The notes beneath the pieces were generated by a model that saw only the letters and a program-made list of their open reading frames with translations, was not told the DNA's origin and made no database searches. A program made the position numbers and the translations under genes. DNA of 64,000 nt from Glutamicibacter sp. B1 (lineage in GTDB: Bacteria > Actinomycetota > Actinomycetes > Actinomycetales > Micrococcaceae), in contig NZ_CP125942.1 in assembly GCF_039602135.1 (NCBI RefSeq), positions 2,356,001 through 2,420,000 on the forward strand. The letters run 5' to 3'. Below are positions 11,673 through 24,843 of this stretch, in pieces. The first letter of the stretch is position 1. Every line of letters starts with the position of its first letter.

Positions 11673-11916
11673 TTAATAACTTTAGTTGCTCAAAGGTTCA
11701 TTGCCAAGCATGCAGAAGAAGTCAATTACACGGTGATGCCAAGCTCAATGTCTCCGCCATCAGTTCTCGTCCGACTGCTCCAGAGAGCTCCAGCCGTGCC
11801 TGCCGGCACATTGTCGAGGTCGCTATGTTCGAATTTGGATCAGTGTCGCTATTTAACTCCGATACGCTCCCGGTTCACAGGATGCTCGACAAGGTATTCC
11901 TTCAGTCAAATGGTCA

Positions 11917-12432
11917 TCACGCACGGCCCACTACATCAACATCCGTCCGATACTTGGTCAGCATGTCGGTGGGTAAATGACAGGCATCCTCGGGGCAACG
12001 TGCGAGACGATGCTGATGCTCTTCGGCGCTTCGCACATAGTTGAGAAGTGGCAGCACCTCGACGGCGATCCGGTGAGCATCGGCTCTGGCCGCGATGAAA
12101 GAACGGGCGACTTCGAGGTGAGCCGGATTAGTGGAGTAGACACCGGTACGGTACTTCTGCCCTACATCAGGTCCTTGCCTATTCACGCTGTAGGGGTCGA
12201 TGATTTCAAAGAGGTAGTCCATGAGTTGCTCGAAGCTGACGACCGAAGGATCAAATTGTGTGCGCACGCATTCGGCGTAGCCATCGTAGGGGCCGTCGAG
12301 GCGTTGGCTGGTTCCGTTGGCCCTTCCGGCCTCGGTGAGGATCACCCCGGGCAGCGTTTCAGTGAAGGCCTGCACTCCCCAGAGGCAGCCGCCTGCCAAG
12401 TAGATCTCCTCGACCATCTGCTCTGCACCCAT
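11917..12432 (-). CDS. msrA: Peptide methionine sulfoxide reductase MsrA
   Basis: A 171-residue enzyme that reduces methionine-S-sulfoxide in proteins. The catalytic motif reads GGCLWG (Cys16) where most MsrA have GCFWG; Leu for Phe is a known mild variant. Other family landmarks follow: GYAECVRTQFDPSVVSFEQL (the strand and helix after the active site), DPYSVNRQGPDVGQKYRTG, and AEEHQHRL. The C-terminal tail has Cys in LARCPEDAC, which may serve as resolving cysteines. It is alone on its strand. Repair of oxidised Met fits the stress-related content of the accessory region. Confidence 0.9.
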   Translation of the reverse strand: MGAEQMVEEIYLAGGCLWGVQAFTETLPGVILTEAGRANGTSQRLDGPYDGYAECVRTQFDPSVVSFEQLMDYLFEIIDPYSVNRQGPDVGQKYRTGVYSTNPAHLEVARSFIAARADAHRIAVEVLPLLNYVRSAEEHQHRLARCPEDACHLPTDMLTKYRTDVDVVGRA

Positions 12433-12502
12433 AAGCCGATCCTAGTGCCACTTGGGCGATAATCGATTCGAAGTTGTAGCCAGCAGGACTTCTTAGAGTC
12501 GT

Positions 12503-15436: not shown

Positions 15437-15577
15437 CGCCGCTCAACGGCAATTTCACTAAAAGGTAAAAGCGTACAACGAAGTGCTACTGAGTTCCGGC
15501 AGAAATTTTCTTTGCGGGATGCTTGTTGCTTCCGAAGTTTGACTTTGACGTCACGGCAAGGTTTACCGTCTCTTGCT

Positions 15578-16486
15578 ATGACTATTTCAGTGATTGACAG
15601 CGCAACTAGCATGCGCCGGGTACTCGCAGCAGGGCCCTCCGACCGAGCCGCCTTAATCCGTGAGATGTGGTCACCTTTGGCTGGGATGTACCACTTCATT
15701 CCGGGCGGGGTGGACATGGCCACCGTGCATCGCCAGAATTTCGGCTTCGATTGGGAAGCCTCCGTCGAACCAATTCAAGAGGGCCTCGAACGTCTCATCA
15801 AGGCAGATGCCTGGAACCGCATCGCATGCGCGCTCGAGTCCGGAACAGTAGCATTGCGGTCGACAACCTCTGACATCGAGGTCCCCGATTTGCAGGTTCT
15901 CCTCGTGTTGGGCGATCCCTCGAACATACACTTCGTTGACGAGATCCAGGGATTGTCTGCATTCGGAGGAATCAGTGGCTACATCACGATCACCGTCTGG
16001 CCCACACCCCAAGTGCTGGAAAGACTCGAAGCGATTGCCGTTCATGAGCTCCACCACAATGTGCGCTACTCACCGGGCGGAGTCGTTTGGGATCCGGCGA
16101 CCGTCACCGTAGGTGAACAGGTGATCTCCGAAGGGCTTGCGGATGTGTTCGCTGCTGACCTGTTCGGCGAAAGTGGGTTCACGCATTTCGTCAGCGCGAG
16201 CACTCGCAACGATGACAACGTCCTTGCTAAGGTCGCTAGTGGGCTACACCTCACAGGAATGCAGAACTTCACTGCTTGGGTGCATGGTGATGCGAGCGCA
16301 AGACTGTTGGGCGCAGAGCCAGTCGGACTGCCTACAGGGGCCGGCTACGCCGCTGGCATCCGTCTGGTACGTGCATATCTCAAGGCCACGGGATCCACTG
16401 CAGCGCAAAGTTTTGCCACGCCTGCGGACGAGATTCTGCGTATTGCCGCGCCTGTACTGGACTTGCCCACCCGTTTGGAAGACTGA
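15578..16486 (+). CDS. DUF2268-type putative zinc metalloprotease
   Basis: A 302-residue protein. The zinc-binding helix is HELHH in AIAVHELHHNVRYSPG at about residues 151-166, followed by a downstream Glu in VISEGLADVFAADLFGES, giving the HExxH...E arrangement of gluzincins. This is the DUF2268 pattern. No signal peptide is visible, so it is probably cytoplasmic. The ATG at 15578 starts the conserved part. The next gene, a TipAS-type MerR regulator, starts 30 bases downstream on the same strand, a pairing that recurs in other Gram-positive genomes and suggests one regulatory unit. Confidence 0.75.
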   Translation: MTISVIDSATSMRRVLAAGPSDRAALIREMWSPLAGMYHFIPGGVDMATVHRQNFGFDWEASVEPIQEGLERLIKADAWNRIACALESGTVALRSTTSDIEVPDLQVLLVLGDPSNIHFVDEIQGLSAFGGISGYITITVWPTPQVLERLEAIAVHELHHNVRYSPGGVVWDPATVTVGEQVISEGLADVFAADLFGESGFTHFVSASTRNDDNVLAKVASGLHLTGMQNFTAWVHGDASARLLGAEPVGLPTGAGYAAGIRLVRAYLKATGSTAAQSFATPADEILRIAAPVLDLPTRLED

Positions 16487-16516
16487 GATCCAGGGCAAGA
16501 GAATAGGAAGCAATCC

Positions 16517-17311
16517 GTGGAGTGGACCGTGCAGGAGCTAGCAGAGCGCGCAGGCATCAGTGGGCGCACATTGCGCCACTATCATCAGATCGGGTTACTC
16601 GAACCAGACCGTGTAGGGTCCAACGGCTACCGCTATTACGGGCTCAACGCGGTCTCCCGTCTGCAGCGAATCCTATTATTACGAGAGACGGGCTTGCCGC
16701 TGACGGATATCGCGAACGTATTGAGTGCGCCAACAACGCCCGAGGTGGAAGTCGAAGCACTCACTGAGCAATTGGCGCATCTGGCGAGCGAGCGTGAATC
16801 GCTGAATCGACGCATCAATGCGGTAGAGCACACCTTGTCCATGCGCAGTCAGGGGCGCGAACCACGCATGGATGTGATGCTCGAGGGATTCAACGATCGA
16901 TATGAAACCGAGGTCATCGAGAATTGGGGCCGCGAGGCATTCGAATCCTCGAATCAGTGGTGGCATGGGAAATCGGTCAGTCAGCAAAGGCAATGGAAAG
17001 CCAGAGCTGAAGCTCTGCTCACCCAATGGCGTTTACTTCAGGAAGGAGGGTCCACACCGGACTCCACCGCAGCGCAAGACCACGCGGCCATTCATCTGGA
17101 GTGGTTCAAAGAGATCCCAGGAACTCCGACGCATGCAGGCGATACCGCGAAGTCCATCGACATGATCCGAGGTCTCGCCGACCAATACGAGACGAACCCC
17201 GATTTCCATGTCGCGTTCGGAACCGTGCAAGCCGCAACGTTCGCCGCAAACGCATTGCGTCTCCACATACGACAATTAGACGACCATCCACCGAGTGACC
17301 TTCGAAGCTAG
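16517..17311 (+). CDS. MerR regulator with C-terminal TipAS-like ligand domain
   Basis: A 264-residue protein. Residues 1-70 are the MerR HTH and wing (WTVQELAERAGISGRTLRHY, then NGYRYYGLNAVSRLQRI). A coiled coil at about 75-115 is followed by a helical TipAS-type domain (about 130-255; YETEVIENWG, then QADQYETNPDFHVAF-like helix). In Streptomyces TipA this domain binds thiopeptide antibiotics; the ligand here is unknown. Translation starts at GTG behind AGGAAG. It is cotranscribed with the DUF2268 gene. The gene's own stop codon overlaps the diverged ychF-like repeat F. Confidence 0.85.
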   Translation: MEWTVQELAERAGISGRTLRHYHQIGLLEPDRVGSNGYRYYGLNAVSRLQRILLLRETGLPLTDIANVLSAPTTPEVEVEALTEQLAHLASERESLNRRINAVEHTLSMRSQGREPRMDVMLEGFNDRYETEVIENWGREAFESSNQWWHGKSVSQQRQWKARAEALLTQWRLLQEGGSTPDSTAAQDHAAIHLEWFKEIPGTPTHAGDTAKSIDMIRGLADQYETNPDFHVAFGTVQAATFAANALRLHIRQLDDHPPSDLRS

Positions 17312-17358
17312 ACGATAAACCGAATTCCCACCGCACCACCGAATGCTCCAGCCCCATA
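17308..17358 (-). repeat. ychF 3'-end-like repeat, copy F (weak)
   Basis: On the reverse strand this reads AVGIRFIV then TAG, comparable to the YchF C terminus [12 protein letters not shown]. By eye 22 of 33 bases match copy D. The flanking 12-base motif of copies C, D and E is not clear. It marks the left edge of the ArsR-M23 segment. This is the least certain copy. Confidence 0.4.
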
Positions 17359-17378
17359 CAGGTACGCGTGACTCAGCA

Positions 17379-18251
17379 TCAATTCTCTGTGGCAGTTCTC
17401 GCGGGTCGCGCAATGAGATGTTCACCGTTTTCTGGCAATTCCGTGCTTGTGGCCGGAGTTTCGTCACCATTGGCGATGTTTGAAAAACCCATCGGAATTC
17501 CTTGCCCTGTCCAAAACGACGAGCGATCCATGAGTTGGGCGTGCACGTGTGGCTCACTGCTATTGCCCGAGTTGCCGCAGTGTCCCACCAATGCGCCCGC
17601 ACCGATGCGTTGCCCGATTGACACCGTTACCGACCCCCGCTTCAAGTGCGCAACGACAGCAAAGACTCCGTCGTCACCGCGAATAACAACGTGATTTCCA
17701 ATCACAAACCCAGGGCCGCCCAGCTCCCGAAGCGCACCTTCGATCATCATGTACACGATTCCCCACGCGTTCGATCGAGTGCGGTGGTCCCTGCGCCAAT
17801 CGGAAGCTCGCACGACAGTGCCATTGATCATGGCGTACACCGGTTGTCCAAATGCGGGGTACTTGTTCGGGTTACTCATCATGGTCTGACCAAATTCGGG
17901 ACGAGGCGCTTGGCTATCGTCGTATACGAGGTCGATTGCATAAGCTTGTCCGTACGCCCGAACACCATGGCTCGGAACTGCGGACGCCGGACTATTCAAT
18001 GCCTGCCAACGCCCAACAACCGGGGCAAGTACCGATCGTGAAGATTGTTGCGGCAGAAGGCGTGGAACCAAGTACGTCAGGACGACACAGAGTGCAGCAA
18101 GTGCCATCGCGACCCATACCACCACATTCCGGTATGGCAGTGCCCCTTCGGCGGTGATAAGCCGGCCAAAAAGCGCATTGCCAATAAGAACACCGGCTGC
18201 CACAAAGTAGAGTGCCCCGCGCACGCGATATATCGCCAATACTATGCGCAT
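17379..18251 (-). CDS. Membrane-anchored M23-family (LytM-like) peptidase
   Basis: A 290-residue protein with two or three N-terminal hydrophobic segments (about residues 8-25 and 40-62), then a periplasm-side M23 domain. Zinc ligands look present: HGVRAYGQAYAIDLVYDDSQ (H...D), and VVAHLKRGS plus SSEPHVHAQL (HxH) near the end. M23 enzymes cut peptidoglycan cross-bridges. Translation starts at the ATG 18251 that overlaps the stop of the upstream ArsR-like gene (TGATG), so the pair is coupled. The regulator upstream probably controls it. Confidence 0.8.
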   Translation of the reverse strand: MRIVLAIYRVRGALYFVAAGVLIGNALFGRLITAEGALPYRNVVVWVAMALAALCVVLTYLVPRLLPQQSSRSVLAPVVGRWQALNSPASAVPSHGVRAYGQAYAIDLVYDDSQAPRPEFGQTMMSNPNKYPAFGQPVYAMINGTVVRASDWRRDHRTRSNAWGIVYMMIEGALRELGGPGFVIGNHVVIRGDDGVFAVVAHLKRGSVTVSIGQRIGAGALVGHCGNSGNSSEPHVHAQLMDRSSFWTGQGIPMGFSNIANGDETPATSTELPENGEHLIARPARTATEN

Positions 18252-18790
18252 CAATGTCCAGCACCCGTTAGACATGCAAGCAACGGAACAACGCGGGCTG
18301 CTGGAACCTCGTAGCTCCCACGTCCGCTCTGCCGTACCCAACCTGCTGCGACAAGTTGCCGCAGGTGATGGTGCAGTTTCCCAGTAGTTCCAAGCGACGC
18401 GATTTCAGAAAGTTCCGCGGTTGTATGCACACCCGAGAGGATTTGGCGGATAAGTTCCAAACGTCCAGGATGCCCCAGCGCGCTGAACGATCCGGCAAAA
18501 TCTGACCAGTCGGTTTCAAATAGACCGTCAGTCCCAGCATTCTGCTGCCATGCAACCGGTGCGCCGTCTGGCAAATTAAGACTGCCCACAATCAAGACCG
18601 CTCCACCGACTGTATTGGGGTGGTTTTCACGTCGCGCCCGCAGTCCGTGCAGTGCCCAAAATTGCTCTTCATCTAACACAGAATCGGCAACCAAGGGCGA
18701 CTCTTTGACCTCACGCTCAGATTCAAGCCGCTCTATTCGTTCGGTCAGTTCAGTAAGTCGCAGTCGGAGGTCTTCAAGATCACTTTCCAT
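18251..18790 (-). CDS. ArsR-like winged-helix regulator with N-terminal coiled coil
   Basis: A 179-residue protein. Residues 1-35 form a Glu/Leu/Arg-rich coiled coil (DLRLRLTELTERIERLESER). The C-terminal half is a winged helix: FSALGHPGRLELIRQILSGV, then TAELSEIASLGTTGKLHHHL and RQLVAAGWVRQSGRG. The ATG at 18790 has TTGGAG upstream. It overlaps the M23 peptidase gene by one base. The region between its start and the next cassette (18791-19215) holds the ychF-like repeat E and no gene. Confidence 0.8.
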   Translation of the reverse strand: MESDLEDLRLRLTELTERIERLESEREVKESPLVADSVLDEEQFWALHGLRARRENHPNTVGGAVLIVGSLNLPDGAPVAWQQNAGTDGLFETDWSDFAGSFSALGHPGRLELIRQILSGVHTTAELSEIASLGTTGKLHHHLRQLVAAGWVRQSGRGSYEVPAARVVPLLACLTGAGH

Positions 18791-18946
18791 ACTCCAATAG
18801 TACGATATTCCAAAAAAGCGAACTACGCTCTCGCGAGCGACTTTTCTCGAGAGCATCATTCCGGCCTTTGGAGCCTAACAAAGCACAAGTGCCGGACCCC
18901 ACAGTGAGATCCAGTGCTTGCGCAAAAGTGATATTGCCACTCGCCG

Positions 18947-18997
18947 CGAGGCACTAAATCCGAACTCGACTAAGTCGCCAAACGTACCAATCTCTGC
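18947..18997 (-). repeat. ychF 3'-end-like repeat, copy E
   Basis: The reverse strand reads GDLVEFGFSA, close to the YchF C terminus [10 protein letters not shown], and its 5' side carries the shared block ACCAATCTCTGC (18986-18997, + strand). I count 35 of 47 identical bases against copy D. It lies in a 425-base non-coding stretch between the ArsR-M23 and TetR-SDR modules. Confidence 0.7.
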
Positions 18998-19215
18998 AAG
19001 CTACGACCCATTATCTGTCTTGTTAAAGATGCATCATTGAGGCATTACTTCCGTGAAATTATCCACCCCACAACCGCCAGGCCGATCTCATCAAAACAGT
19101 ACTGCGCTAGCCTTCAAGATTACCTTCCGCGGCGCCGGTCGACTCGCAGCCGTCATGACTATGGAGTTCTACGATCTTGCACTCCAGGCTTTGGAATATC
19201 TGGATGACGTCCGCC

Positions 19216-19842
19216 CTACGATGTCCCCGCACCGCGAAGAGCGTTTCGGACGAGCTCGTCGGCGAAGCCGAGTGTCAGCGGTTCATCGGGAATGAGGAGA
19301 CGGTGGTAGCAAGCCCCCCAGAGTTGGTCGACGATGATGTCGAGGGAGAAGTCGTCTCGAAGCTGGCCTCGGGCGCGGGCACGCCGAAGAGCAGCCAGCG
19401 CCAGATCACGTCGGGGCCGGGAGTACGTCGCCGATAACGCCTTACGGAGGGCAGGATCGTTTTGTGCCGCGCCGATCAGCTCAGTGATGACGGAACCAGC
19501 ACCCTCCTCGGTCATGAGCCGAACAAAGGCACGCAACTGAGTGCGAAGGTCGGCTTCGATGTCTCCGGTATCCGGGAACTCAAGGGAGTGCTCAACATAA
19601 GCGAAATAAGCCTCTGCCGCCAAAGCGCCGACGCTGGGCCACCACTTGTACAGGGTCGTCCTGCTTGAGCCAGCCAAGGCGGCGACCCGGTCAAAGGTGA
19701 CCGCGATCATTCCATGCTCGAAGAGCAACGACGCCGCAGCATCAACGATTCCCCGCCGGACCTCGGCGGCCGGCCTTCGCCCACGCCCCCGTCGCTGCGG
19801 TTGATTCTCGCCTAACGAACCATTTATGGACATGTTGTTCAT
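19216..19842 (-). CDS. TetR-family transcriptional repressor
   Basis: A 208-residue regulator. The TetR HTH sits at about residues 28-75: GIVDAAASLLFEHGMIAVTF, then DRVAALAGSSRTTLYKWWPS. A ligand-binding helical C-terminal domain follows (TetR_C-like, ITELIGAAQNDPALRKAL). The leading Arg-rich tail (QRRGRGRRPAAEVRR) is typical. It is divergent from an SDR gene with a near-palindrome between them. An alternative Met three codons downstream exists; neither has a strong ribosome-binding site. Confidence 0.9.
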   Translation of the reverse strand: MNNMSINGSLGENQPQRRGRGRRPAAEVRRGIVDAAASLLFEHGMIAVTFDRVAALAGSSRTTLYKWWPSVGALAAEAYFAYVEHSLEFPDTGDIEADLRTQLRAFVRLMTEEGAGSVITELIGAAQNDPALRKALSATYSRPRRDLALAALRRARARGQLRDDFSLDIIVDQLWGACYHRLLIPDEPLTLGFADELVRNALRGAGTS

Positions 19843-19861
19843 AATAGCCTATCGTGCTTTA

Positions 19862-19876
19862 TGTACAAATTGTTCA
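19862..19876. promoter_or_regulatory. Probable TetR operator
   Basis: TGTACAA-A-TTGTTCA is a near-perfect dyad (one base-pair mismatch) midway between the divergent TetR and SDR starts. A second TTGTTCAT half-site lies at the TetR start. Confidence 0.6.
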
Positions 19877-19891
19877 TATCAAGGAGCTGCC

Positions 19892-20629
19892 ATGAGTATC
19901 AAGCAACAACGCACCGCGATTGTCACCGGCGCATCCGGAGGCATCGGCCGAGCGGTCACCGAACGCCTCACAGCCGACGGCTTCGCAGTCGTTGCCCACT
20001 ACAGTGGCAATCGCCAGCGAGCAGAAGAGCTGGTCGAGACGATCCGTTCCCGGGGCGGGCAGGCAATCTCGTTCGCCGGAGACGTCGCAGACGATGCCGA
20101 CATGAGCGCACTGTTTGACGCGGCCGACGCATCCTTCGGTGGCGTTGACGTCGTGGTGCACACAGCCGGAATCATGCCGCTCGCGCCTGTGGTCGAGTTG
20201 GACCTGGAGACCTTCGACCAGGTGCAGCGCATCAATGTGCGGGGCACCATTGTCGTCGCCCAGCAAGCTGCGCGCCGTGTGCGTGCTGGCGGCGCGATTA
20301 TCACTTTCTCCACAAGCATCACCCGTCTCCAGACGCCGGGCTACGCGGCGTACGCGATGTCGAAGGGCGCGGTGGAGGCACTCACACTCATCCTCGCTCG
20401 CGAATTGCGTGGCCGCGACATAACAGTCAACGCGATCGCACCTGGCCCTACCGACACCCCACTATTTCGCGAGGGTAAGTCGCAGCAGCTCATCGACACC
20501 ATAGCGGGCATGAACCCCATGGAGCGTCTTGGCAGCCCCGAAGACATCGCCGGGGTTGTCTCCGCGCTTGCCGGTTCGGTGCGATGGATCAACGGCCAGG
20601 TGCTGTACGCAAACGGCGGTGCCGCATGA
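19892..20629 (+). CDS. Classical SDR-family oxidoreductase
   Basis: A 245-residue classical short-chain dehydrogenase: cofactor loop TGASGGIG, a second-strand AHYSGNRQRAEELVE with Asn-Arg that favours NADPH, D-V-A in FAGDVADDAD, HTAG in place of NNAG, catalytic Ser in FSTSITR, and YAMSK as YxxxK. The C-terminal NGQVLYANGG is canonical. Of the four SDRs in the accessory region only this one has a complete active site. AAGGAG precedes the ATG. Its stop overlaps the start of a broken hydrolase gene (ATGA), and the divergent TetR gene probably represses both. Confidence 0.9.
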   Translation: MSIKQQRTAIVTGASGGIGRAVTERLTADGFAVVAHYSGNRQRAEELVETIRSRGGQAISFAGDVADDADMSALFDAADASFGGVDVVVHTAGIMPLAPVVELDLETFDQVQRINVRGTIVVAQQAARRVRAGGAIITFSTSITRLQTPGYAAYAMSKGAVEALTLILARELRGRDITVNAIAPGPTDTPLFREGKSQQLIDTIAGMNPMERLGSPEDIAGVVSALAGSVRWINGQVLYANGGAA

Positions 20630-21189
20630 GTCGCGCGCAAGCACTGAGCATTGAAAAACTGCTGGGCGAAGACCCACGCGATCTCGGCGGCGTCCCGATC
20701 GTCGCCGCCTCCGTCGACGGAACCGATAGCTAGGCAGTGTAGTTCTATCTTCCCGGTGGTGCCTAAACTCGGGGCTTGGCCACAACTTGGGCCGCTTTGG
20801 TCGCCGGCATCATTGGTCGCACCAGAATGCGTGGGGTCAGCATCGAGTACCGATTCGCCGCGCCCGAACATCCATTCCCGGCAGCCGTCGAGGACTCCGT
20901 CACCGCCTACCGCGGATTGCTCGCCTCTGGAATATTCGCACTACTTATACCAGCTGGATCTCACGAGATCCTCCTCGACGATGCTCTACGAGTAGCCGCT
21001 CGCGCGGCCGAGGCCGACGATGCGGTGCCCCTTGAGATCACGCTTGGTGTTCCCCACGTCTTCCAAGGCTTCACCTCAGCCCTGTACGAGGGCGCGGCGG
21101 CGCTGGATTCCGTCGCCACAATTTTGTATGCACAGCTCGGATCGACGCTGGAACCCTGTGGTTCAATGACGGACGAGCTCCAGTCCTGA
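20626..21189 (+). pseudogene. Decayed HSL-type alpha/beta hydrolase
   Basis: A single frame starting at the ATG overlapping the SDR stop reads as a hormone-sensitive-lipase-like hydrolase (FYLPGGA corresponding to the HGGAY oxyanion region, then [20 protein letters not shown]). Three in-frame stops occur at 20731 (TAG), 20740 (TAG) and 20764 (TAA), all explainable by single substitutions of Trp/Leu/Tyr-type codons. In addition the GDSAGG nucleophile segment is missing: [10 protein letters not shown] runs straight into [19 protein letters not shown], which belongs near the C terminus. The gene is therefore dead twice over. The upstream SDR gene remains intact. Confidence 0.75.
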
Positions 21190-21200
21190 CGGAGATTCAG

Positions 21201-21248
21201 CTCCACGTTGAAGCGGAACCGGGCCGAGTTTAGGTACCTAGCAATTGC
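21201..21248 (-). repeat. ychF 3'-end-like repeat, copy G
   Basis: The reverse strand reads ARFRFNVE; 13 of 15 bases match the ychF end across CAC-TT-GAA-CG-GAA. Its far side ends in AGCAATTGC, which looks like the shared ACCAAYCTCTGC block with three bases lost. It separates the TetR-SDR-hydrolase module from the VOC gene. Confidence 0.55.
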
Positions 21249-21324
21249 CGTTCATGCGCGGGCCGTGTCCGCGTCGTCGGCACCGACCGTTGCACCGAGA
21301 GACATTCGATACCAGACTTGAGGG

Positions 21325-21714
21325 ATGGGACACTTTCGGACTCCTCAGGTTGTTCTGTTCACTCGCGACATCGACCGCGCGGTCTCGTTCTACGGCGCGC
21401 TCGGTTTCGACGAGGCTTTCCGCACACCACGTGCAGGCACACCCATCCATGTAGACCTCGCCCTGGACGGTTACCGCCTCGGTCTGGCCACCGAGTCCAG
21501 CACTCGTGAAGACCACGGCCTCGACCCTATCGCCGACGGCCAGCGTGCGGCAGTGATCCTGTGGACTGACGACGTTACTTCAGGCTACGAGATGCTCATC
21601 AGCCTCGGTGCAACGCCCGTCAAGCCACCAGAGCCTTGGCTCGATCGTCTGCTGATCGCCTGGGCTCAGGACCCAGACGGCCACCTGGTGCAGGTCGTCC
21701 AAGCCACGAATTGA
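21325..21714 (+). CDS. VOC-family protein
   Basis: A 129-residue VOC protein: VVLFTRDIDRAVSFYGALGF opens the fold, then a strand IHVDLALDGYRLGLATESS, the second helix SGYEMLISLGATPVKPP, and the closing AQDPDGHLVQVVQA. The DPDGHLVQ ending and His in the central strand are those of metal-dependent members such as glyoxalase I-like enzymes. It is a single-gene cassette between ychF-like copies G and D. The substrate is unknown. Confidence 0.85.
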   Translation: MGHFRTPQVVLFTRDIDRAVSFYGALGFDEAFRTPRAGTPIHVDLALDGYRLGLATESSTREDHGLDPIADGQRAAVILWTDDVTSGYEMLISLGATPVKPPEPWLDRLLIAWAQDPDGHLVQVVQATN

Positions 21715-21737
21715 CGAGACGCCGCACCGAAACGCGA

Positions 21738-21788
21738 CTACACGTTAAACCGGACCTCTACCACGTCGCCGCACATACCAACCTCTGC
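21738..21788 (-). repeat. ychF 3'-end-like repeat, copy D (best displaced copy)
   Basis: The reverse strand reads GDVVEVRFNV followed by TAG, nearly the exact YchF C terminus including a stop codon. 25 of 33 bases match the genuine ychF end. The adjoining block ACCAACCTCTGC (21777-21788) is shared with copies C and E. It lies between the VOC and VapBC modules. Confidence 0.75.
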
Positions 21789-21823
21789 GGGCTGTTATCC
21801 GCCTCGACAGCCCATTAATCCAG

Positions 21824-21843
21824 TTATATAATGACTTATATAA
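21824..21843. promoter_or_regulatory. VapBC operator-like dyad
   Basis: TTATATA-ATGACT-TATATAA is a perfect 7+7 inverted repeat 14 bases before the antitoxin start and overlaps a probable -10 element, as expected for autorepression by a VapBC complex. Confidence 0.65.
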
Positions 21844-21857
21844 GACAGTGAGGATTC

Positions 21858-22112
21858 ATGGCAATTACCTCAGTTGACATCAACAAGGCTGAACTCAATC
21901 AAGCTAAGCGACTGGCAGGAACCAGCTCGACTCGTGAGACCGTCGATCTAGCGCTTCGGATATTAATTGCCGTCCGCCAGCAGCCGGCCGTCGTCGAACG
22001 CATCATTTCCCGCAGTTTCGAACCCAGTCAGATCGATGCACCAACTATTTCCCCGATTGCAGACGCACCACCTGCAGGTAGGACCCCGCCGCCCAGAGCA
22101 GTTTCCGAATGA
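21858..22112 (+). CDS. vapB: VapB-family antitoxin
   Basis: An 84-residue protein whose first 45 residues resemble VapB antitoxins (VDINKAELNQAKRLAGTSST, then RETVDLALRILI as the ribbon-helix-helix-like part). The remaining tail is Pro-rich and would wrap the toxin. AGTGAGG precedes the ATG. Its stop overlaps the toxin start by 4 bases (ATGA). Together they form a one-module cassette between ychF-like copies D and C, where a TA pair could stabilise the array, as they do in integron arrays. Confidence 0.85.
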   Translation: MAITSVDINKAELNQAKRLAGTSSTRETVDLALRILIAVRQQPAVVERIISRSFEPSQIDAPTISPIADAPPAGRTPPPRAVSE

Positions 22113-22513
22113 CGATCTACTTGGTTGACAACAGCATTTGGCAAAAGGCATCCGCCAGTCCCGCCATCGCACAGCGACTCAGGCAGTTATCCCCTCAGCA
22201 CTTGATCATCACCTGCCCGCCCCAGGTACTCGCGTACTGTCACTCCGCCAGAACCGCAGAGGAGTACCACGAGCTCAGGAAAGACATGGATGAACTACTG
22301 GGAGCCTGGGAACACCCGAACGAATCCACCGTACTGGACATCCAGCAAGCCCTCTGGGACAACGGACTGATGCGTGCTGCGGCAGCATTCGATTGCCTCA
22401 TTGCCGCCTACGCCGTCGTCAATGATGCTGTCGTTCTGAACTCAGATCAAGACTTCGGCTATATTGAGGCAGCCACGAACGGTACCGTCCGCCAAGAATA
22501 CATCGCTGGATGA
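22109..22513 (+). CDS. vapC: VapC-family PIN-domain toxin with one acidic residue replaced
   Basis: A 134-residue PIN-domain protein paired with VapB. Acidic positions Asp7 (YLVDNSIWQ), Asp95 (AAAFDCLIAAY) and Asp113/115 (NSDQDFG) are present. The expected second acid, Glu in the CPPQVLEYC pattern as I recall it for close relatives, is Ala42 here (CPPQVLAYC); the codon is GCG, one base from GAG. That change would be expected to weaken or abolish Mg-dependent RNA cleavage. The toxin may thus be attenuated while the antitoxin remains. Confidence 0.85.
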   Translation: MTIYLVDNSIWQKASASPAIAQRLRQLSPQHLIITCPPQVLAYCHSARTAEEYHELRKDMDELLGAWEHPNESTVLDIQQALWDNGLMRAAAAFDCLIAAYAVVNDAVVLNSDQDFGYIEAATNGTVRQEYIAG

Positions 22514-22588
22514 GATTTTTCGAAGCAAGCCAGAATGCACAAATGCCCCGGATTTCCTGATAGAAACCGGGGCACTGCGCTGAGTGAA

Positions 22589-22638
22589 CTACACATTGAA
22601 CCTGAATTCCACCAGGCCCAGCACCGACCAACCTCTGC
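22589..22638 (-). repeat. ychF 3'-end-like repeat, copy C
   Basis: The reverse strand reads LVEFRFNV then TAG, identical to the YchF C terminus over its last seven residues. 19 of 24 bases match the genuine end, and the shared block ACCAACCTCTGC is at 22627-22638. It lies between VapBC and the last SDR gene. Confidence 0.75.
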
Positions 22639-22745
22639 AACTTGGCCGACGCGTTTCAGCCTGGGTACCGTGATAAGTTCGATACAGAGCGGAACCGCTT
22701 CCAAGTGGTATCCGCCGTATCTCTCGAGGCACGGAAAAGGTGTAT

Positions 22746-23444
22746 ATGAGCACTCTGGTAGTGGTAGGAACGGGGCCGGGGCTCGGCCGCAGTCTCGCCG
22801 AAAAGTTCGGTAAGAATGGCTTCGAGGTTGCCCTGATCGCGAGAAACCAGACGAATCTCGACGCTCTTCAGGCATCACTGTCAGAGCAGGGCATCACGAG
22901 CGCCGGTTTCGCAGCCGATGTCACGGACGAGCAGCAGCTCGCGGGAGCGTTCTCCAAAGTGCGGGAGACTTTCGGGCAGATCGATGTGCTCATCTACAAC
23001 GCGGGTGTCATCGCGCCGGTCTCGGCCGCAGAAACAACGGCGCAGATCGCGAATCAGCATCTGCAGGTGAACATCATCGGCGGTATCTCAAGCGCGCAGC
23101 AGGTGATCGGTGAGATGGTGGACAGGCAGCAGGGAACCATCTTCTTTACCGGCGGTGGAGCAACCGAGCTGACCGTCACGCCGTTTTTGACGACGTTAAG
23201 CATCGGCAAGTCGGGGCTTCGCAGTTATGCCCATTGCCTCCATGAAGAGTTGGCGAGTCAGGGCGTCTATGTGGGGATGCTCTCCATCGCCGGAGTCATC
23301 CAAGAGGGCACCTACTTCTCGGCTGCGAACATCGCAGACGAATACTTCGACATGTATCAGAAGCGGGATGCCGCGGAGCGCTTCTACATCGACGAATCCG
23401 AGGAAGCGGACGCAGTCCTGAAAGAGACCTATACGAGTCAGTGA
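22746..23444 (+). CDS. Atypical SDR-family protein, paralogue of the 5233-5907 gene
   Basis: A 232-residue Rossmann-fold protein: GTGPGLGRSLAEKFGKNGFE at the cofactor site, IARN after the second strand, and YNAG (LIYNAGVI) as in active SDRs. At the catalytic site the sequence is LSIGKSGL: Lys is kept but Tyr is replaced by Ser. Sequence and layout match the SDR at 5233-5907, so both belong to one atypical subfamily. The ATG at 22746 has AAAGG upstream; a GTG two codons earlier is possible. It is the cargo of the last full cassette before ychF. Confidence 0.8.
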   Translation: MSTLVVVGTGPGLGRSLAEKFGKNGFEVALIARNQTNLDALQASLSEQGITSAGFAADVTDEQQLAGAFSKVRETFGQIDVLIYNAGVIAPVSAAETTAQIANQHLQVNIIGGISSAQQVIGEMVDRQQGTIFFTGGGATELTVTPFLTTLSIGKSGLRSYAHCLHEELASQGVYVGMLSIAGVIQEGTYFSAANIADEYFDMYQKRDAAERFYIDESEEADAVLKETYTSQ

Positions 23445-23520
23445 CACCTCAATAGTGGTCAACGCGTAGCACCTTGCCAGTCGCACCGATGGGTTAGCCT
23501 CGCCAAGCGACCGGGCAGTG

Positions 23521-23553
23521 GCCAACGTCGAGCCGGAACTCCACCACGTGTCG
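23521..23553 (-). repeat. ychF 3'-end-like repeat, copy B
   Basis: The reverse strand reads HVVEFRLDV; 22 of 33 bases match the genuine ychF end including GGAACTCCAC. It lies 76 bases after the SDR stop. Only about 200 bases without a gene separate it from ychF (23554-23757), which contain the ychF terminator. Confidence 0.6.
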
Positions 23554-23704
23554 ACGCGAAGTGGGCGAACATCACGATCGAATGATGCCTCACGTGCTCA
23601 TCCAGACCGCGCACGATGATGGATGCCATCTAAGCCACCTCCTTGAGCTATCAACTACGATCACGCTGGTTACTCAACGCGGAAGAACAAGAAGGGGACC
23701 ACAA

Positions 23705-23735
23705 AGCCCCGTCGATCACGAAGATCGACGGGGCT
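23705..23735 (-). terminator. Terminator of the ychF transcript
   Basis: AGCCCCGTCGATC and GATCGACGGGGCT form a perfect 13-bp stem with a 5-base loop, 23 bases beyond the ychF stop. Confidence 0.8.
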
Positions 23736-23757
23736 CACGGAGCAGGATCAGCTCACA

Positions 23758-23790
23758 TCACACATTGAAACGGAACTCCACGACGTCGCC
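23758..23790 (-). repeat. Genuine ychF 3' end, reference copy A of the repeat family
   Basis: The last ten codons plus stop of ychF ([10 protein letters not shown]) are the sequence to which copies B to G are related. Being at the 3' end of an essential, highly conserved gene, it has the properties of an integration target whose reading frame is restored by each insertion. Confidence 0.65.
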
Positions 23791-24843
23791 GTCCTTCATG
23801 ATGTAATCCTTGCCTTCGATACGAGCCTTGCCCGCAGCCTTGGCATTTGCCACTGAACCGGCTTCCACCAGATCGTCAAAGCCAACAACTTCAGCCTTGA
23901 TGAAGCCACGCTGGAAGTCGGTGTGGATCACACCGGCAGCTTCCGGCGCGGTAGCACCACGGCGAATGGTCCAGGCACGAGTTTCCTTAGGACCGGCGGT
24001 CAGGTAGGACTGCAGACCCAGGGTGTCATAACCAACACGAGCCAACTTATCCAGACCGGACTCTTCGATGCCTGCATCCTCAAGCATTTCGGCGGCTTCG
24101 TCTTCTTCGAGCTCTGCCAGTTCGGCTTCGAACTGTGCATCGAGGAAGATCGCCTCGGCTGGAGCCACCAGCTCGGAGAGCTTAGCCTGCATCTCCTTAT
24201 CGACCAGACCAGCCTCATCGGTGTTGAACACGTAGATGAATGGCTTGGTGGTCATCAGCTGCATTGGAGCCAATTCTTCCAAGTCCACACCGGCTGCCTT
24301 GCCGGCAGCAAACAGGGTCTTGCCCTCTTCGAGTACCTTCTGGGCAGCCAGCAGGTTGTCCATGAACGACTTTTCGATCTTCTTGCTGCGCAGTTCCTTT
24401 TCAAGGCGTGGCAGCTGGTTCTCGATGGTCTGCAGGTCGGCCAGGATCAGCTCGGTAGCGATGGTCTCGATATCCGATTCCGGATCAACCTTGCCGTTCA
24501 CGTGGATAACATCGTCGTTCACGAACGCGCGGGTTACCTGGCAGATCGCGTCTGCTTCACGAATGTTGGCCAGGAACTTATTGCCCAGGCCTTCGCCTTC
24601 CGAAGCACCCTTGACGATGCCGGCGATATCCACGAAGGATACGGTCGCTGGCAAGATGCGCTCAGAATCGAAGATTCCGGCAAGCACCTTGAGCCGTGCG
24701 TCAGGCAACGGCACGACACCCACGTTGGGTTCAATGGTTGCGAACGGGTAGTTGGCTGCCAGCACCTGAGCACGGGTCAGCGCGTTGAACATGGTGGACT
24801 TGCCGACGTTGGGCAGTCCGACGATTCCGATAGTAAGAGCCAC
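23758..24843 (-). CDS. ychF: Redox-regulated ATPase YchF
   Basis: A 361-residue Obg-family P-loop NTPase that binds ribosomes and hydrolyses ATP rather than GTP. G1 is GLPNVGKS (residues 8-15), followed by the switch region [13 protein letters not shown]3-like [10 protein letters not shown], and the altered G4 (YVFNTDE in place of NKxD) that explains ATP preference. A coiled-coil insertion (about 125-210) and a C-terminal TGS domain complete the protein, which ends DVVEFRFNV. Full length for the family. It is monocistronic with a strong terminator. The high codon bias produces a long antisense open frame that I disregard. Confidence 0.97.

Follow-up and report, generated by a model that had tools for sequence, protein, structure and literature searches.

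The question raised by this locus is why the end of one gene, ychF, should recur again and again in the DNA that follows it. The gene, which encodes an Obg-like GTPase, lies in a stretch of 64,000 nucleotides (here called the window) that is part of the complete 3,603,828-base chromosome of Glutamicibacter sp. B1 (G000:C1:2356001-2420000; G000 denotes this genome, and G001 onward its relatives). An earlier note on the window had listed seven copies of the ychF 3' end (A, the living end, to G), lying between complete gene modules, and had proposed serial site-specific insertion at that end. This proposal is supported by the coincidence of cassette edges with the repeats, by displaced ychF ends in six elements and by attP-like sites on viral contigs. 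Very probably, the locus is a row of short cassettes in tandem, which large serine recombinases (LSRs) have built by inserting them site-specifically, one after another, at the ychF 3' end.

All seven repeats are present at the positions and on the strand that the note had given (Table 1), and the identity of D and E at 35 of 47 bases was confirmed over their best 47-base segment. The repeats were scored with R1, a sequence-only profile of 37 distinct site copies taken from relatives, none from the window, which was run on the 64-kb window with filters off; E-values from this tool are rough. In the own 3.6-Mb genome, six places reached E<=0.1 among the best 150 of 1667 first-look candidates, all of them at ychF, namely A, B, C, D, E and G. 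Copies A, C, D and E are genuine sites beyond doubt. Taken as sequences by themselves, G and B appear marginal; at the position of G, the relative G012 has a clear site, at the end of a homologous VOC cassette. Copies F and B are weak as sequences. F is supported by homology, since it lies at the edge of a 1.77-kb MerR/DUF2268 block that matches G009 at 78% identity and is one cassette there; B, which lacks a left arm, has no comparable support. The note had the array bounded at F (17308); it extends past F, to about 12 kb in the window. A matrix trained on 19 real ychF ends, the altered end of G016 among them, detected 57 sense copies of at least 16 bits and 1 antisense copy in 21 regions downstream of ychF (~18 kb in each of 20 relatives, ~24 kb in the window). 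A second matrix, trained on its own matches, gave 78 sense and 0 antisense copies, which is no independent test; its site list underlies the crossover, cassette-interval, block-end, codon and polarity analyses below.

The repeated unit is larger than a ychF end. A block of ~48 bp is conserved, which reads AGAGGTTGGTAnGTGC, then CGGAACTC or the ychF-like GGCGACGT, then GGTGGAGTTCCGCTTCAACGTCTAA; the note was right that the ychF end is included, but the site exceeds it, and the note's ACCAAYCTCTGC block (on the opposite strand) is the outer portion of the left arm. A GT at offsets 9-10 is the centre of a palindromic core, its G (G28) being invariant and its T (T29) kept in at least 90% of the aligned copies of relatives. 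For serine integrases, a 2-bp crossover is expected at the centre of a palindromic core.

The point of exchange is visible in hybrid sites. Site 1474 of G011 equals the left half of site 4544 of G001 up to GGCGACGTGGT, with two mismatches further left, while its right half equals site 2919 of G009 from GGTTGAG onward; as a hybrid of these two halves, it places the exchange within GGT. In 8 cassette pairs sharing the left side only, mismatches amount to 2.3% from -60 to -17, 11% from -16 to 8 and 0/16 at GT, followed by 24% in the next 22 bases and 70% beyond. The values in the same order for 9 pairs sharing the right side only are 74%, 40%, 1/18, 6.6% and 4.8%. We infer that crossover takes place at the central GT dinucleotide, as would be expected of an LSR.

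In the array consensus, the arm motifs GTTG and CAAC are located 18 bases (left, P-spaced) and 13 bases (right, B-spaced) from the centre. The arms of serine-integrase attP and attB are described in PMC3783163 as differing by a 5-bp shift of the zinc-domain motif, and 5 bp is the shift between the two arms of the consensus. A P-spaced left arm joined to a B-spaced right arm makes the array sites resemble attL/attR-type scars, and they look like P.B' scars of integration. The spacing in D of the window is 19/14 when motif start positions are counted; A, C and E were not scored in both arms.

Two further features concern the history of the sites. The stop is kept at the ychF position in 52/60 internal copies, and 2041 of 4250 codon differences within EFRFNV (48%) are synonymous, against ~9% in shifted frames (sites below 30 bits dropped), so the internal copies were formerly coding ends of ychF. 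The farther a site lies from ychF, the lower its score (within-array r -0.45, permutation p 0.0006; 56 sites in 10 arrays, after dropping sites below 25 bits, arrays with fewer than 3 sites, and G006, G007, G008, G014 and G028), which fits entry at ychF.

The cassettes are short. Intervals between sites have a median of 1490 bp, with quartiles of 834 and 2328 (59 intervals in 14 arrays, sites below 30 bits and G008 dropped), and the largest, 13 kb in G028, may be several cassettes; G009 holds 11 internal sites of at least 30 bits in one locus. Their open reading frames (ORFs) lie on both strands, 53 in the ychF sense and 56 opposite among 109 chosen ORFs. Of these, 58 were selected for family and defence searches. 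The cargo is mixed, including dehydrogenases, TetR, MerR, HTH, GNAT, glyoxalase, M23 peptidase and AAA proteins (best 25 of 75 families). PADLOC models were matched by few members (PDC-S06 models by 2, AbiD by 1, PDC-S09 by 1, and HTH- and ATPase-type models more weakly; best 25 of 41 families), indicating that the cargo is not mainly known defence genes.

Cassettes are shared between species, and the shared pieces end at the sites. Among 37 ends of shared blocks (at least 250 bp and at least 85% identity in sequences that included 300 bp of ychF; inverted blocks, blocks past the last site and sites below 30 bits dropped), 28 fall inside a site of one or both genomes (random placement: mean 3.42, maximum 11 in 5000 draws), and 23 do so in both genomes (random mean 0.08, maximum 3). 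Cassette borders in other strains, which the note had proposed to inspect, do coincide with the repeats. The G001 array consists of the first two G009 cassettes (97.6%) and an extra 3.07-kb cassette adjoining ychF. The latter is 99.6% identical to the first cassette of G004, the arrays diverging at the site thereafter, and ychF of the two genomes is 90.2% identical; since ychF differs by 9.8%, the cassette must have travelled. Cassette identity also exceeds ychF identity in G001/G011 (98.1 vs 88.6%), G009/G011 (99.1 vs 89.1%) and G002/G017 (98.4 vs 89.6%), and between the VOC cassette of the window and G012 (94.2 vs 86.9%).

The enzyme was recognised in relatives. The window yielded no recombinase, in line with the note: all PF00589 and PF07508 matches of the own genome lie outside it, and tblastn with two ychF-linked recombinases gave nothing below E 1 in it. 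In G008, 12 kb are inserted at ychF, with genes for a DUF499/HmaC-like ATPase, a DUF1156/HmaB-like methylase and a helicase-type protein (none of the three reaching the NCBIfam cut-off of its matching antiphage family), a 524-residue LSR and a displaced ychF end. Homologues of this LSR were found at E 1e-40 in 28/395 genomes of the family. Of these 28 genomes, 23 have the LSR gene downstream of ychF at a distance of 61 bp to 36 kb, 4 have it on a different contig, and in the last, which gave the weakest match (34% identity), ~182 kb separate the two genes. PF00239 (Resolvase) and PF07508 (Recombinase) are both present in 3/3 ychF-linked LSRs examined. The enzyme sought by the note, a tyrosine or serine recombinase, is thus of the serine class; a tyrosine recombinase was rejected, with no PF00589 match in the window, as was a tRNA target, since the window contains no tRNA. 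At 1e-40, the own genome lacks an LSR of the ychF-linked family, so that mobility there would be in trans or past; its sole PF07508 protein, encoded 1.2 Mb away, was rejected as the enzyme, being 22-23% identical to the ychF-linked LSRs.

These elements rewrite the end of YchF. Near the LSR, the YchF tail is altered in 18/20 regions (SGLTSGGKK or HGITSASQGKK instead of FNV), G354 and G079 keeping FNV; it is also altered in G008, G016 and G013, the last without a known LSR nearby. The C termini beside LSR elements (L207-L226) are mostly lysine-rich. The native ychF end is displaced downstream in 6/21 altered-tail regions (G008, G074, G210, G168, G234 and G260). Within the genus of G260, the match of the joined flanks runs on unbroken for at least 20 bases past the joint in 9/15 genomes, reaching the native stop or going beyond it in 5 of these, and ends 8-15 bases past the joint in 6/15. 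A second P'-type arm lies between ychF and the LSR in G016 (L230:5623-5649), which suggests that two elements are stacked there; the first has an N6-methylase gene, and a search of it gave no recombinase. Longer C-terminal ychF fragments occur 2-5 kb downstream of ychF in G017 (69 residues; G017:C10:15738-15944, L032) and in G079 (~150 residues, adjoining an LSR fragment; G079:C34:11403-11852, L226), and appear to be older events that duplicated more than the site.

Relatives of the LSR, 38-47% identical, are encoded on nine viral contigs, and in 6/9 of these loci the core GTnGAGTTCCG is present within 100 bases of the LSR start. In two of the six (L245 and L246), the core is the centre of a palindrome (AGAGGTTA...TAACCTCT and TGATGTTA...TAACATCA, respectively), both arms are P-spaced (19/19), and the in-frame readings of the right halves are VEFRSGITSGAKR-stop and VEFRFQVTSGSGKA-stop. 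With this core, these arms and an in-frame tail beside viral LSRs, the viral-classed contigs carry attP-like sites made for ychF; together with the LSR at the same locus in relatives, this answers the note's call for a recombinase with a matching attP. The other four core sites have different arm motifs and were not scored in both arms, among them the LSR-adjacent site of L249 (ATGCCTAT...ATAGGCAT); LSR subfamilies sharing the ychF core may differ in their arm motifs. In the plasmids collection the LSR had no match at E<=1e-30, in 59 named phage records its relatives were all below 60% identity, and the long-site pattern had 0 exact matches in viral contigs.

The arrays are widespread. In whole genomes, R1 was used to score a limited number of candidates each, 150 in the 18 genus genomes and 14 in an order-wide draw, so that the counts are lower bounds. 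Arrays are present in at least 12/18 genus genomes (G000-G005, G009, G011, G012 and G015-G017), that of G016 lying 33-40 kb from ychF behind other insertions, and G008 has one displaced ychF end; G006, G007, G010, G013 and G014 gave no further copy at ychF at E 0.1 among the candidates scored. Outside the genus, 71 ychF loci (from 80 named loci, up to 10 kb on each side of ychF) contained, on the downstream side of ychF, another 24 copies in sense and 1 in antisense orientation; upstream there were none. The 24 sense copies are spread over 15 loci, including Knoellia, Galactobacter, Brevibacterium, Paeniglutamicibacter, Janibacter, Phycicoccus and a Bowdeniella assembly; L082 among the loci is a contig also in G034, which supplied one row to R1. 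Knoellia, Brevibacterium and Glutamicibacter are Micrococcales of three families, and Bowdeniella belongs to the Actinomycetales. The other nine loci, run separately, were eight of the own genus and L105, which lies on the same Mobilicoccus contig as L103 and is the second ychF copy there; L105 showed the ychF end and no further copy. In the order-wide draw of 396 genomes, at least 336 have a match at 1e-4, many being the ychF end itself, and at least ~129 have two or more (hand count). Five multi-site genomes, picked for many or strong sites, were checked: 5/5 have sites after ychF on its strand (nine internal sites within 8 kb in L255), with no LSR match in the stretch examined.

These observations would be explained as follows. 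Crossover would occur at the GT inside the ychF codons GAC-GTC-GTG (GDVV). The incoming element would supply its own downstream half-site, encoding the last YchF residues and the stop, and the old ychF end would be shifted to the far edge of the insert, beside the element's upstream P-type arm. Each old end would then remain as a P.B' scar oriented like ychF, and cassettes would be younger the nearer they lie to the gene. Full elements would carry an LSR and a P-type right arm (hence YchF tails such as SGLTSGGKK), and small cassettes a native-like B' arm, by which ychF and attB are rebuilt and the next insertion becomes possible. Beyond the sites, arrays, edge coincidence, GT crossover, sharing between species, LSR-ychF linkage, displaced ends and viral attP sites that the genomes document, this scheme supposes that the LSR family moves small cassettes without a recombinase as units in trans, and that P.B' sites pair with ychF. 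With somewhat better than even confidence we go one step further, and regard ychF as the seat of an integron-like cassette store of the Micrococcales running on serine-integrase chemistry, in which passive P.B' cassettes of 0.5-3 kb are captured, shuffled and passed between species by LSRs from visiting phages and defence islands, each capture rewriting the C terminus of the GTPase. The term integron-like, used in the earlier note, is apt as an analogy, not as membership.

Several points weigh against the proposed scheme. Pairing of P.B' with B.B' or P.B' is not standard for an LSR, and pairings other than the standard one do not recombine, according to PMC3783163; either a directionality factor or relaxed enzyme would be at work, or the small cassettes would be derived from larger elements. 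No cassette circle or excision was seen, and the LSR is present in just 2/18 genus genomes (G008 and G016), against arrays in at least 12. The displaced native end was not found in the other 15/21 altered-tail regions, within the stretch examined. Block ends lie outside sites in 9/37 cases, and related arrays do not give independent blocks. Part of the sharing may be vertical, since cassettes are not clearly above ychF in identity in G001/G009 (97.6 vs 96.8%), G005/G009 (87.3 vs 88.0%) and G004/G005 (88.0 vs 89.3%). With respect to the arms, only D of the four window sites shown holds both motifs at the exact spacing, and the arm-offset score for the outer motif is best at a +5 shift, with values that are negative (weak). 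Many sites have the ychF-like left core GGCGACGT and not CGGAACTC, which a single GT crossover leaves unexplained and which suggests further exchange upstream of GT. Repeats within one genome share up to 41 identical bases, and homologous recombination could also move cassettes. Finally, at least 12 matches at E<=0.1 lie away from ychF in the 18 genomes. Three have values below 1e-4, namely the strong G001 pair (C1:432948 and 434369) and one in G015 (C5:165070, 6.5e-5); the other nine are partial, at 0.009-0.099.

The best surviving alternative, possible and yet doubtful, is that the sites are fossils of past insertions by large LSR elements or phages, from which the recombinase and most cargo were later deleted, the cassettes being remnants that were never mobile as units. 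LSR elements at ychF do leave such displaced ends, the sites do decay with distance from ychF, and most array genomes of the genus are without an LSR of the ychF-linked family. Such remnants would not be expected, however, to appear as small cassettes bounded by two sites and common to species in different neighbourhoods, several at 94-99.6% and above the identity of ychF. Moreover, where small cassettes adjoin a living ychF end, this end bears a native B' arm rather than a P' tail like that of LSR elements. It is unlikely that LSRs made the first insertions only and that present shuffling is mediated by RecA through ychF and the repeats. Sites of one genome do have up to 41 identical bases in common, and array segments moving together with ychF would need no special enzyme, but the shared blocks mostly end at a site, not inside ychF or cassettes, and the best-resolved exchange, that of G011, G001 and G009, switches within GGT.

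A true integron, with a tyrosine IntI and folded single-strand attC sites, is very improbable: tandem small cassettes, one site orientation and signs of entry at one end would agree with it, but no PF00589 match exists in the window, the candidate hairpin CGGAACTC/GAGTTCCG is paired in 71.3% of cells against 71.2% in shuffled sites, and single hairpin pairs fail in up to 25/37 sites. The chance that the repeats are C termini of unrelated genes ending in VEFRFNV-like residues, which the note had named as its own refutation, is practically negligible, since in spite of the weakness of B and F taken singly, the own-genome sites are confined to ychF among the candidates scored and the copies share an upstream arm and a single strand; for C, D and E this origin is refuted.

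The sites and genes of the window are listed in Table 1.

Table 1. Sites and genes at the ychF locus (window coordinates).
Feature	Position	Strand	Evidence
ychF, Obg-like GTPase, 361 aa; host gene, 3' end = attachment site	23758..24843	-	PF06071 + PF01926
Copy A, living ychF end = chromosomal attachment site; central GT 23780-23781 (counted by hand)	23757..23791	-	R1 E 6.6e-9 in window
Copy B, weak, right half only, without left arm	23525..23549	-	R1 E 1e-3 window, 0.06 genome
Short-chain dehydrogenase, cassette gene	22740..23444	+	PF00106
Copy C, probable P-arm + B'-arm scar site, 1-bp deletion in left core	22587..22637	-	R1 E 1.4e-10 window + alignment
Presumed partner of VapB-like gene, cassette gene	22109..22513	+	Position only; no Pfam match at 1e-3
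VapB-like antitoxin, cassette gene	21858..22112	+	PF09957
Copy D, best-kept putative P.B' scar site; post-stop TCGCGTTTCG resembling some relatives' ychF ends	21736..21787	-	R1 E 8.5e-15 window
VOC/glyoxalase-family protein, cassette gene	21325..21714	+	PF00903
Copy G, decayed site	21201..21244	-	R1 E 3.4e-4 window, 0.02 genome; end of VOC cassette common with G012
Alpha/beta hydrolase, cassette gene fragment, profile positions 18-61 of 210	20776..21189	+	PF07859
Short-chain dehydrogenase, cassette gene	19826..20629	+	PF13561
TetR regulator, cassette gene	19216..19842	-	PF16859, PF00440
Copy E, decayed site, left arm recognisable	18947..18997	-	R1 E 4.4e-6 window, matched part 18956-18996
ArsR-like HTH, cassette gene	18251..18859	-	PF01022, slightly below its cut-off
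M23 peptidase, cassette gene	17379..18341	-	PF01551
Copy F, edge of block homologous to G009 cassette	17307..17340	-	R1 E 0.79 window, not significant alone
Next older cassette past F: DUF2268 protease-like gene + MerR/TipAS regulator	15512..17311	+	PF10026, PF13411, PF07739; in G009 a single cassette flanked by two sites
Oldest recognisable cassette remnant in window	11911..12450		blastn blocks homologous to site-flanking blocks in G001, G003, G009

The coordinates of the oldest remnant were converted as 23761 minus the downstream position. The alpha/beta hydrolase of the TetR/SDR cassette looks degraded, as it covers so little of its profile. Full-length ychF orthologues, 97 to 67% identical, are present in 54/57 relatives searched, G044, G046 and G050 giving weak matches only. 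In Mobilicoccus massiliensis (NZ_LN651322.1, 84,870 bases), the two ychF copies, L103 and L105, lie in opposite orientation on one contig. With translations read by eye, the ectopic pair of G001 lies near qcrB-like and DUF2071-like genes and marks a cassette with a site at each end (L227:2449-3917; G001:C1:432948-434416), whose gene product begins almost as that of a ychF-array cassette gene of G009 and G011; this place is probably a secondary insertion site. The lone ychF-end-like site of G015 (L228:2571-2606) directly follows a gene whose translation reads like an acyl-CoA ligase.

Should the cassettes be mobile as units, the gene-capture system would span several actinobacterial families. 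The locus would then be a defined place to look for exchangeable genes, including toxin-antitoxin genes, regulators, redox enzymes and some candidate defence genes. It also offers a serine-integrase family whose natural target is conserved, a way to test directly whether a hybrid P.B' site can be a substrate, and a widespread GTPase whose tail is repeatedly replaced by mobile DNA. An integron-like store at ychF, if true, would amount to a second and independent mode of cassette-array operation, in which cassettes enter at the end of the host gene itself and sites pair in a manner not known from serine integrases.

In the open-licence literature, judged by title and abstract start, no description of a ychF-linked cassette array with a serine recombinase was found. 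A study of pneumococcal prophages is said to place attB beside ychF. Two other reports (PMC8637289, PMC10383233) do so as well; the site is upstream of ychF, by DUF951, a tyrosine integrase is used in PPH005, and the site is unrelated to ours. Phages and islands that insert by a serine integrase and rebuild the target gene resemble the ychF system in the GT crossover and in P and B arms with a 5-bp shift (as described in PMC3783163), and also in the attP on viral contigs with its in-frame tail and stop. Those are single insertions that carry their integrase, whereas at ychF cassettes without a recombinase accumulate.

Integrons combine attI and attC sites, the enzyme IntI and gene-cassette arrays. 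The ychF arrays are alike in their tandem small cassettes, sites in one orientation and signs of polar growth. In contrast to integrons, they involve a serine and not a tyrosine enzyme, a double-strand site of P/B type, no conserved hairpin (site pairing equalling the shuffled control), ORFs on both strands and no resident integrase seen, PF00589 having no match in the window and, in a search of 21 genomes, none closer than 20 kb on the downstream side of ychF.

By mechanism, the closest known systems are the staphylococcal (SCC) and enterococcal (ECC) cassette chromosomes, to which the ychF system does not belong, its recombinase not being Ccr and its gene not rlmH. SCC and ECC are inserted at the 3' end of rlmH (orfX) by the Ccr LSRs, and pseudo-SCC elements without ccr exist. 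The LSR of G008 scores 60.2 bits on the CcrB model NF047343, the cut-off of which is 900, and the host gene here is ychF. The likeness, as described in PMC6222049, extends to the LSR class, to insertion at the 3' end of a conserved gene with that end rebuilt, to att sites of ~50 bp and to several att sites per locus; the same source reports fewer than 5 att matches per genome for ECC, against the 11 internal sites in the one locus of G009. Rebuilding of the host gene end by the element is seen at ychF in the new tails of 18/20 regions and in the displaced native ends of 6, while the cassettes at ychF are ~1.5 kb in size and are present in several families of Micrococcales.

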